Assembly: GCA_938042245.1 (NCBI GenBank)
Contig: CALIRO010000062.1
Coordinates: 1-64,000, forward strand
Reading direction: 5' to 3'
DNA: 64,000 bases
Source of the DNA: an uncultured Thermoguttaceae bacterium
Lineage (GTDB): Bacteria > Planctomycetota > Planctomycetia > Pirellulales > Thermoguttaceae
Position numbers and translations under genes: made by a program. Below, one piece after another: positions 6,566 to 58,353 of the stretch (positions within the stretch are counted from its first letter, which is position 1; each line of letters opens with the position of its first letter). The notes below the pieces were generated by a model. The model was given only the letters and a program-made list of their open reading frames with translations. It did no database searches and was not told the origin of the DNA.

Positions 6566-6652
6566 ATAGAGTGAAAATTTGTTTATACAGCCTTTAAAAT
6601 TTCGCAGATTTCGAGGGTGCTTGTCGTAACTGCTTGCTACATAAGGACTTAT

Positions 6653-7014
6653 TGGAGGCGGCGGGAATCGAACCCGCGTCCCAAGGCGGCTTGCCGATAG
6701 GCCTGGTACGTGCGTAGTCGGTTTTTTCGGTTTCGCCCAGCAAGGCTCCAACCGACAGGATCCTTGTGAGGCTAGCCCGCCTTAGGGTTTAATCCCAGGC
6801 CAAGCAGGCGCCGACCTGAGACGAGCCGGATTGTCCGGCCGGTTTTCGGGCCTCTCCGGCAAAGACCCTCAACCGGGCTGCTTATTCAATTAAGCAGCAA
6901 GCGCGAGCGGTTGCTCGGCATGTAATTTTGCAGTCGGCTTTTAACGTGGCCCGCCGACCAACCACGGCACGGTGCCTACCGCGAGAGCCGTCCGGTCGAA
7001 TCCAATTCGCCCCC
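6653..7014 (-). ncRNA. ssrA: tmRNA (transfer-messenger RNA)
   Basis: Read on the minus strand, the gene starts GGGGGCGAATTGGATTCGAC, the hallmark tmRNA 5' end, and finishes with a T-arm (GGTTCGATTCC) and CGCCTCCA. The first seven bases pair with CGCCTCC to form the acceptor stem (one G-U). The terminal CCA is not encoded. The tag reading frame lies at 6890-6931: resume codon GCA, then AKLHAEQPLALAA and TAA. The ALAA end is the usual protease degron. tmRNA rescues stalled ribosomes with SmpB, which is not in this window. A TACAAT hexamer about 18 nt upstream of the 5' end (7032-7037) is a possible -10 box. It is a one-piece tmRNA of ordinary length (362 nt). Confidence 0.96.
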
Positions 7015-55174: not shown

Positions 55175-55203
55175 TTGACAGCCCCCAAAAGGAGACGTAG
55201 GAT
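55175..55203 (+). promoter_or_regulatory. Promoter of the fluoride riboswitch/antiporter cassette
   Basis: TTGACA (55175-55180), 17-nt spacer, TAGGAT (55198-55203). Predicted transcription start at about 55210, a few bases before the aptamer. Together they form a compact leader. Confidence 0.72.
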
Positions 55204-55215
55204 TTTCCTAGTGAT

Positions 55216-55265
55216 GGGGATGGGGTCCCCCGATAAGCGCCCGTGGGGGCTGATGACTCCTGCTG
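55216..55265 (+). promoter_or_regulatory. Fluoride riboswitch (crcB motif)
   Basis: The 50-nt core starts GGGGATGGGGTCCCCC and ends GGGCTGATGACTCCTGCTG. P1 pairs GGGG (55216-55219) with CCCC (55228-55231). A pseudoknot pairs GGGGTC (55222-55227) with GACTCC (55255-55260), including one G-U. P3 pairs GCCC (55239-55242) with GGGC (55247-55250) around a four-base loop. The GAUG and CUGAUGACUCCUxC blocks match the fluoride aptamer consensus. Fluoride binding stabilises this fold and, in studied cases, turns on downstream genes for fluoride export or tolerance. It lies 220 nt before a cation/proton antiporter gene, with an intrinsic terminator between. Confidence 0.93.
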
Positions 55266-55321
55266 TGATGTCATCTCGGTAGGGGTTTTAGCCCCCAGTA
55301 GAGGGGAAATCTTCGACAAAG

Positions 55322-55350
55322 AAGCCCTGCCGTGATGGCAGGGCTTTTTT
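55322..55350 (+). terminator. Intrinsic terminator in the riboswitch leader
   Basis: AGCCCTGCC and GGCAGGGCT form a perfect 9-bp stem with loop GTGAT, followed by six T's. It lies 56 nt after the aptamer and 137 nt before the antiporter ATG, so it is the likely expression platform. The 5' arm contains AGCCC, complementary to GGGCT (55247-55251) of the aptamer, which suggests alternative pairing; the switching path is inferred, not shown. Confidence 0.88.
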
Positions 55351-55487
55351 GTTTGGTTTGGGCCGGGCTCGCGGCGGCCCACCAGAAACCCATCCTCGTA
55401 AGCTGGGTAGGCTGCCCTAGGTTTTTCACCGATTCCCCATCAACCGACGAAAGCCTGCCCCGCTTCTATACCTGGAGGCGTTTTGTC

Positions 55488-56756
55488 ATGGAACAAGCGT
55501 ATCTGATTGCTGCAGTTTGGTTTGGTTTGGCGCTGGCGGCAGCCATTTTGGCCCATCACTTTCGGCTGTCGATGGCGCTGGTGGAAATTTGTGTCGGCAT
55601 GGTGGCCGCTTTGGCGGCGGAAAAACTTTTCTACCCTGACGCCATCGGGGCCACCCATGAATGGCTTCGGTTTGTCGCTTCGGTCGGCGCGGTGCTTTTA
55701 ACGTTTTTGGCCGGGGCGGAATTGGATCCGGCCGCCATGCGGATGAAATTCAAAGAAGTCTTGGTGGTGGGACTGTTCGGATTTTTCGCACCGTTTTTCG
55801 GTTGTGCTCTGTTGGCTCGGTATGTGCTGGGCTGGGACCATTCGGCCAGTTGGTTGGCTGGGATCGCCCTTTCGACCACTTCAATGGCCGTGGTCTATGC
55901 GGTCATGCTAGAAACCGGTTTCAACAAAACGGAGTTTGGCAAAGGAATTTTGGGCGCCTGTTTTGTCAATGATCTGGGGACGGTGATTGCTCTGGGAGTG
56001 ATGTTTGCGCCGTTTACCTGGAAGACGGTTGTTTTTGTAGGGGTGAGTGTGTTGGTGATAGGAAGTTTACCCTTGTTGACGCCTCGGCTTATCAACTCCT
56101 ACGGCAACCGGACCGCCGCCATCCGAACGAAGTGGATTCTGCTGGTGCTTTTCGGGTTGGGGGCCTTGGCTCTTTGGAGCGGAAGCGAAGCGGTGCTGCC
56201 GGCTTATTTGGCCGGGATGGTGCTGGCCGAGACGATCGGACGAGATAACTTCTATGTGCGCCGCCTCCGGACTATGACCTTGGGGTTTTTGGCCCCATTC
56301 TACTTTATTCGGGCAGGGGCGTTGGCGTCGCTGCCGGCGATATGGTCCGCTCCGGCGGCCTTTTTGCTTCTGTTCGGGGGCAAAGCGGTAAGCAAAATCC
56401 TGGGGCTTGTGCCGGTGGTGGGCCTTTTCCGCTCCGACGCCAAGGAACGATGGTACTATACCCTGATGATGTCCACTGGACTAACCTTTGGAACGATCTC
56501 AGCCATGTATGGCTACCATCATGGCATCGTGGATCAGACGCAGTATTCCCTTTTGGTGGCGGCGGTGATTGCCAGTGCGGTGATTCCGACGATGATCGCC
56601 AACGCTCTGTTTCTGCCCCGGCATCTATTAAGCACGATTCCGCCCGAAGCTCTTCCCCCGGAGCAATGGGAAGCTCGCCCAGCGGTTCGGAAGGAACCCC
56701 GCTCTGGTCCGAAAAAATCTCCCCACCAGGATCCCACTTCCGTCGAACTGGCTTAG
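55488..56756 (+). CDS. Cation/proton antiporter under fluoride riboswitch control
   Basis: 422 residues from ATG 55488, 9 nt after GGAGG; the open frame reaches back through the terminator to 55332, which is not a credible start. About 12-13 membrane helices of the Na_H_Exchanger (CPA) type, with FLAGAELDPAAMRMKFKEVL, ALSTTSMAVVYAVMLETGFN and ACFVNDLGTVIALG carrying an Asn161-Asp162 ion-binding pair (the ND pair usual in electroneutral exchangers; electrogenic ones have DD). A hydrophilic, Lys/Pro-rich C-terminal tail has no regulatory nucleotide-binding domain. Antiporters of this class are found under crcB-type riboswitches, where they may offset fluoride toxicity by exporting protons or sodium; whether this one moves fluoride is unknown. 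Confidence 0.93.
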   Translation: MEQAYLIAAVWFGLALAAAILAHHFRLSMALVEICVGMVAALAAEKLFYPDAIGATHEWLRFVASVGAVLLTFLAGAELDPAAMRMKFKEVLVVGLFGFFAPFFGCALLARYVLGWDHSASWLAGIALSTTSMAVVYAVMLETGFNKTEFGKGILGACFVNDLGTVIALGVMFAPFTWKTVVFVGVSVLVIGSLPLLTPRLINSYGNRTAAIRTKWILLVLFGLGALALWSGSEAVLPAYLAGMVLAETIGRDNFYVRRLRTMTLGFLAPFYFIRAGALASLPAIWSAPAAFLLLFGGKAVSKILGLVPVVGLFRSDAKERWYYTLMMSTGLTFGTISAMYGYHHGIVDQTQYSLLVAAVIASAVIPTMIANALFLPRHLLSTIPPEALPPEQWEARPAVRKEPRSGPKKSPHQDPTSVELA

Positions 56757-57090: not shown

Positions 57091-58353
57091 ATGGACCTTC
57101 ATGCCCTGGTAAAAGAGCTTCACAAGAAGAATGATTCCAAGATAGTGCTTTTGGTGGCCGATGGGCTGGGCGGGTTGCCCCCACGGCCTTTGACGCCGGA
57201 AGAACAGATAAAGCGCTTTGGCGCAGTTAATGCCTTCTTTCCCGAGTGGAACAAGACGGAGCTGGAGACGGCCCAGACGCCCAACCTGGATGCCCTGGCT
57301 CGCCGGGGCACCTCCGGTCTGATGACCATGATCAAACCGGGCATTACGCCCGGCAGTGGTCCGGGGCATTTGGCGATGTTCGGCTATGATCCGCTTCGGT
57401 ATCAAATTGGCCGAGGTGCTTTGGAGGCCACTGGGGTTGGATTTGCTCTGGGGCCAAAGGATGTAGCGGTTCGGTGCAATTTCTGTACCTTGGACGCCCA
57501 GGGCCGGATCACCGATCGGCGAGCGGGCCGGATTTCTACCGAACAAAGCGCCCCGTTGGCCATTCGGCTTCGGCAGATCCAAATCCCTGGGGTGGAAGTG
57601 TTTGTTGAGCCGGTCAAGGAGCACCGGTTTGTGGTGGTCTTTCGGGGCGAGGGGCTGGGCGATCAGGTAACGGATACGGATCCGCAGGCCACCGGGGTGC
57701 CGCCGTTGGACCCGGTGGGGGCGGACCCAGCTAGCCAGCGCACGGCGGAGGCGGCTAAGGAGTTCATTCGCCAGGCCCGCCAATTGTTGGCCGACCAGCC
57801 TCATGCCAATGGGTTGACGATGCGCGGCTTTGCCAGGCGGCCGGACATGCCCACCTATGAGGAAGTCTATGGGCTTCGGGCGGCGGCGATTGCCGTCTAT
57901 CCAATGTACAAGGGGCTGGCCCAATTGGTCGGCATGAAGGTGGTCGGTTCGCCCAGCAATTTGAAGGAAGAGATCGATCTGCTGGAGCAGGTCTGGCAGG
58001 ATTTTGACTTCTTTTTTGTCCATTTCAAATATACCGATAGCCGGGGCGAAGACGGCGACTTCGAGGCCAAGGTCCGCATGATCGAGGAGTTAGATTCGGT
58101 CATCCCCCGGGTGGTGGCCCTGAACCCGACGGTGCTGGCGGTTACCGGCGACCACAGCACGCCGTCCCGACTGGCCAGCCATAGTTGGCATCCGGTGCCG
58201 GTAGTGATTGTGGCCGATTCGTGTCGTCCGGACGGTTGCCAGGAGTTTAGCGAATCGGCAGCTTGTCGGGGCGGCCTGGGGCATTTCGAGGCCATGTATC
58301 TGATGCCGCTGCTATTGGCCCATGCAGGCCGACTGGAAAAATTCGGCGCCTAG
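57091..58353 (+). CDS. apgM: 2,3-bisphosphoglycerate-independent phosphoglycerate mutase, archaeal type
   Basis: 420 residues; the ATG follows GGAG. ApgM interconverts 3- and 2-phosphoglycerate without a bisphosphoglycerate cofactor, using the alkaline-phosphatase-like fold. Landmarks: VLLVADGLGGLP with the metal-binding Asp, TPNLDALARRG, PGSGPGHLAMFGYDP, and near the C-terminus VHFKYTDSRGEDGDFEAKVRM and LAVTGDHSTPSRLASHSWHP with the metal-binding Asp and His residues. Length matches ApgM, shorter than the bacterial GpmI form. It may be the main glycolytic mutase of this organism. Confidence 0.95.
   Translation: MDLHALVKELHKKNDSKIVLLVADGLGGLPPRPLTPEEQIKRFGAVNAFFPEWNKTELETAQTPNLDALARRGTSGLMTMIKPGITPGSGPGHLAMFGYDPLRYQIGRGALEATGVGFALGPKDVAVRCNFCTLDAQGRITDRRAGRISTEQSAPLAIRLRQIQIPGVEVFVEPVKEHRFVVVFRGEGLGDQVTDTDPQATGVPPLDPVGADPASQRTAEAAKEFIRQARQLLADQPHANGLTMRGFARRPDMPTYEEVYGLRAAAIAVYPMYKGLAQLVGMKVVGSPSNLKEEIDLLEQVWQDFDFFFVHFKYTDSRGEDGDFEAKVRMIEELDSVIPRVVALNPTVLAVTGDHSTPSRLASHSWHPVPVVIVADSCRPDGCQEFSESAACRGGLGHFEAMYLMPLLLAHAGRLEKFGA

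Follow-up and report, generated by a model that had tools for sequence, protein, structure and literature searches.

After the exporters, the class of proteins most often associated with fluoride riboswitches is that of the Na+/H+ antiporters, and those linked to the riboswitch have been interpreted as acting in pH homeostasis (2024 review, PMC11139923). Described examples include the riboswitch-controlled Na+/H+ antiporters of Baker 2012, as cited in that review, and C. difficile CD0656-7, which consists of a CLC plus an NhaP-type antiporter (PMC11477304). The locus examined in the present study likewise places an antiporter gene under a fluoride riboswitch; since such pairings are documented (PMC11139923), the one found here is not new, and the pairing that the original prediction read correctly is no surprise. 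Unlike CD0656-7 and the Baker 2012 antiporters as the review presents them, this antiporter is accompanied by neither CLC nor CrcB, none was found in its genome, and it falls in a delimited family with an extra lysine. It resembles CrcB/Fluc and CLC-F in being a riboswitch-controlled membrane protein that takes the same regulatory place as they do in related genomes, but the folds are unrelated, and fluoride transport, shown for CrcB/Fluc and CLC-F, is putative for the antiporter family. As to the regulatory element, the RF01734 riboswitch of B. cereus offers a described counterpart, in which the pseudoknot strand itself forms the base of the terminator (PMC11077080). We consider it probable that the fluoride ON switch of the present locus controls a transporter of the CPA/NapA fold dedicated to fluoride defence, for which fluoride export is the likeliest, though putative, role.

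The window analysed is the whole 64-kb stretch of DNA, which was scanned against Rfam and derives from an assembly of 4.65 Mb that is 93% complete. Rfam, PF00999 and the sequence elements agree that the ordered cassette originally proposed is real, with promoter, fluoride aptamer, terminator, Shine-Dalgarno sequence and the antiporter ATG at 55488 following one another in the window:

55175 to 55203, plus strand: sigma-70-type promoter TTGACA-17-TAGGAT, 10 of 12 consensus matches, TTGACA and the spacing being retained in the sister locus L076
55207 to 55269, plus strand: fluoride riboswitch aptamer RF01734, full-length model match, 52.5 bits, E 1.1e-11
55245 to 55296, plus strand: predicted fluoride-free anti-aptamer hairpin, 55245-55265 pairing with 55277-55296, the minimum-energy fold in the growing and the full leader
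55277 to 55284, plus strand: predicted switching strand CGGUAGGG, which would pair with 55325-55332 as antiterminator
55323 to 55350, plus strand: intrinsic terminator, a perfect 9-bp stem and T6, identical in L076
55474 to 55478, plus strand: Shine-Dalgarno sequence GGAGG, 9 nt ahead of the ATG
55488 to 56756, plus strand: CPA-fold antiporter of 422 aa, PF00999 119.5 bits, with D162 and K299/K303 marking the predicted ion site

The promoter had been read correctly, its -35 element lying at 55175-55180 and its -10 element at 55198-55203, separated by 17 nt. The Rfam search of the window gave the strong match to the fluoride model that had been expected (52.5 bits, where the gathering score is 34), with zero non-standard pairs, and this is the only fluoride aptamer in the whole assembly. 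P1 (55216-55219/55228-55231), P3 (within CGCCCG...GGGGGCT) and the 6-bp pseudoknot (GGGGUC at 55222-55227 with GACUCC at 55255-55260, one of the pairs being G-U) are all present in it, as described beforehand. The same holds for the perfect terminator, whose arms AGCCCTGCC (55323-55331) and GGCAGGGCT (55337-55345) are followed by T6; a promoter/terminator scan of the locus did not report this terminator, the main one, which it probably missed owing to pairing of the T run with upstream A. The antiporter reading frame is open from GTG 55332, which was rejected as a start because it lies inside the terminator hairpin and the homologues start at ATG 55488. Translation very probably begins at that ATG, given the preceding GGAGG and the matching first residue of the homologues.

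Energy folding of growing transcripts suggests how these elements may act together. At low fluoride, the nascent aptamer would be invaded by the anti-aptamer hairpin, which in the predicted folds uses up the 3' strand of P3 and the pseudoknot strand and spares the terminator; the terminator would then form and the antiporter gene would be off. A comparable hairpin also folds in L076. Fluoride, by holding the aptamer, would release CGGUAGGG to pair with the 5' arm of the terminator, allowing read-through. With the aptamer held, this strand makes 8 bp with CCCUGCCG (55325-55332), and in an energy model that omits the fluoride-Mg2+ site and kinetics the antiterminator is favoured at -34.6 versus -21.5 kcal/mol for the terminator at 55340. 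At 55345-55347 the corresponding values are -37.0 versus -33.6 to -35.8 kcal/mol (-35.8 at 55347), and the terminator outcompetes the antiterminator only after the T run is added. An 8-bp complement arose by chance in a fraction of 0.02 of shuffled linkers. The switching strand of L076, CGGCAGGG, pairs perfectly with the terminator 5' arm, a U-to-C change converting G-U pairs to G-C, and the flanking leader has diverged. The folding favours a conventional transcriptional fluoride ON switch, a pathway that we infer from the energy model. It has the same aptamer and 6-bp pseudoknot as the B. cereus riboswitch and the same, here predicted, logic of turning transcription on by preventing termination. 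It departs from B. cereus in that the pseudoknot strand is predicted to fold into an anti-aptamer hairpin distinct from the terminator, with the antiterminator supplied by a released stretch of linker, and the expression platform would represent a modest variant of that type.

The switch path first proposed, in which AGCCC of the terminator pairs with GGGCT of the aptamer, had the wrong sign: fluoride would favour termination, the reverse of what known fluoride switches do, and the folding backs a different antiterminator. It is also conceivable that the riboswitch has decayed, with a terminator that always wins or always loses. The stems here are GC-rich, and in T. petrophila a GC-rich pseudoknot can mean poor switching in vitro (PMC11077080). 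Aptamer, switching strand and terminator are nevertheless conserved in L076 although the flanking leader diverges, and we regard decay as very improbable.

The antiporter has the Na_H_Exchanger fold originally assigned to it. PF00999 scores 119.5 bits (cut-off 26.2) and is the sole Pfam family in the protein, and a structure model derived from 55 homologues (pLDDT 90.4) aligns with NapA 5bz2 over 365 residues (Z 41.5, rmsd 3.2). The protein is neither CrcB nor CLC, as had also been stated, the Pfam scan giving no profile match to CrcB/Fluc PF02537 or Voltage_CLC. Scores for the CPA2 subfamily TIGR00932 (103 bits) and the KefC equivalog NF002924 (33.5 bits) fall below their cut-offs of 238.3 and 752 bits, respectively, and the antiporter is CPA2-like yet outside the curated TIGR00932 model. 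With Thermus NapA (4bwz, 5bz2) it shares the fold, the ion-site aspartate and the universal lysine, and with KefC (8bxg) a CPA2-like fold, an x-D site and the equivalent of K303, which alignment to KefC identifies as the general CPA2 lysine. Unlike NapA, which has DD and PRGE, the family has N or T at position 161 followed by D162 (in 54 of 55 aligned homologues), and the NapA-type DD site is not found in the family alignment; unlike KefC, it has no regulatory C-terminal domains. Both K299 and K303 are invariant (55/55). The extra K299 is missing from NapA, from KefC and from the outgroups L137 and L138, two distant plasmid antiporters without aptamers, and the family has TGLT where these four have RGE-like or other residues. 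The alignment would place K299 beside the ion site. A single Nitrospinota homologue (L084:2305-3495) has N in place of D at position 162, and its locus yielded no aptamer. In two relatives, stop codons or a shift in frame break up the gene (G044:C8:26434-27298 and G103:C6:633885-634831; L032, L034-L036), which suggests gene decay or assembly error.

KefC and MagA models match the antiporter weakly, and fluoride binds divalent cations (PMC11139923), as might be expected if the protein moved some other fluoride-disturbed ion, e.g. K+ or Mg2+, with no direct transport of fluoride. This seems unlikely to us: the KefC and MagA scores are far under the equivalog cut-offs, and the 422-aa protein, for which the Pfam scan returned PF00999 only, has neither a glutathione-gating nor an RCK/TrkA domain.

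A total of 60 related loci from more than 15 phyla were compared, 52 of which carry a full or nearly full gene and were used to count linkage. In 39 of these 52, the gene is preceded at 18-222 nt by an above-threshold aptamer on its own strand, which lends weight to the original reading of a fluoride riboswitch with a fluoride-linked role. Sub-threshold aptamers precede two further homologues, and another four are separated from an aptamer by one same-strand gene (enolase, Usp and, twice, a dynamin-like GTPase), bringing the linkage, weaker and operon-distance cases included, to 45/52. Aptamers are also found upstream of relatives with just 38-48% identity and of plasmid homologues. Phyla are intermingled in the antiporter tree, a pattern compatible with horizontal transfer, and the antiporter is a member of a coherent, many-phylum, fluoride-linked family, the delimitation of which is new here. 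Dynamin-like GTPase genes adjoin the antiporter at L041, L053, L075 and L085, three of the four directly behind a fluoride aptamer.

Members of the family were also found on enterobacterial plasmids, many of them conjugative. Enterobacter and Methylocystis plasmids carry antiporter, usp and crcB in one cassette, near a mutS-like gene, gpmA or eno, and since the plasmid antiporter shares its cassette with crcB it can act alongside CrcB instead of standing in for it. At locus L134 (NZ_CP103612.1 40271-59416) a fluoride riboswitch precedes the antiporter, usp and a mutS-like gene. The genes crcB, gpmA and eno are close by, an arrangement that has the appearance of a mobile fluoride cassette; pco copper resistance lies alongside it.

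Neither CrcB nor CLC was matched in the antiporter's own assembly (93% complete) or in G186, the genome of the 92%-identical sister. Across 392 genomes of Planctomycetota, CrcB is present in 1/15 with the antiporter versus 235/377 without it (Fisher p 1.7e-5, uncorrected for ancestry). The contrast recurs among the 147 genomes of the order Pirellulales (1/7 versus 112/140; p 6e-4, likewise uncorrected) and is weak within the antiporter's own family, Thermoguttaceae (1/6 versus 10/18; p 0.17, uncorrected). Among 50 antiporter genomes from all phyla, CrcB occurs in seven and CLC in 21. CLC-F was considered for the latter and rejected, as the readable CLC hits are of GHGT or GSGIP type and show no CLC-F signature, a few fragments or odd sequences being unclassifiable. 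Within Pirellulales, a fluoride aptamer precedes CrcB in eight genomes, CLC-F in three and the antiporter in five, plus one in which the antiporter follows another gene. The fluoride-linked antiporter clade tends to be found in genomes that lack CrcB or CLC-F.

The aptamer, terminator, fold, linkage and complementary distribution come directly from sequence and comparison, and the fluoride-linked activity originally suggested for the protein is strengthened by the comparison, the activity itself being plausible. Under the mechanism we propose, the antiporter would export fluoride by F-/H+ exchange at a site formed by D162, K299 and K303. That it exports fluoride itself, a substrate and coupling that we infer, has in our judgement not quite an even chance. 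More tentatively still, the family could represent a third kind of fluoride exporter in microbes, so far unrecognised, in which a CPA fold with a lysine-rich site exchanges F- for H+ and takes the place of CrcB and CLC-F in many phyla. A search of the accessible literature found neither transport data nor growth data for any family member.

Alternatively, the antiporter may in truth exchange Na+ or K+ for H+, its induction by fluoride serving to correct the disturbance of pH and ions that follows HF entry, with fluoride leaving by a different, unrecognised route or simply being tolerated. The fold and the closest solved relatives are those of cation exchangers, reviews take riboswitch-linked Na+/H+ antiporters as serving pH homeostasis (PMC11139923), and the plasmid cassettes hold antiporter and CrcB together. 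Against this stand the distribution complementary to CrcB, the own and sister genomes without a known exporter, the extra invariant lysine and the loss of the RGE-like motif. Na+/H+ antiport, moreover, normally carries protons inward, and proton entry by this route would worsen acidification. We regard cation exchange as a serious possibility but not a probable one. Because the antiporter is the only PF00999 protein in its genome, its role could also lie in general ion balance. If the family does export fluoride, another protein fold joins fluoride resistance and provides an example of a cation-exchanger fold carrying a small anion; if not, organisms without a recognised exporter must manage fluoride through ion balance alone. 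In either case the antiporter family is well defined.

Two other genes in the window were recorded. A tmRNA gene lies on the minus strand at 6650-7014 (159.1 bits). A phosphoglycerate mutase gene is located downstream of the antiporter at 57091-58353; it was dropped as a co-regulated partner, as even the 92%-identical sister does not preserve the adjacency. It differs from gpmA, the phosphoglycerate mutase that belongs to a known fluoride operon.
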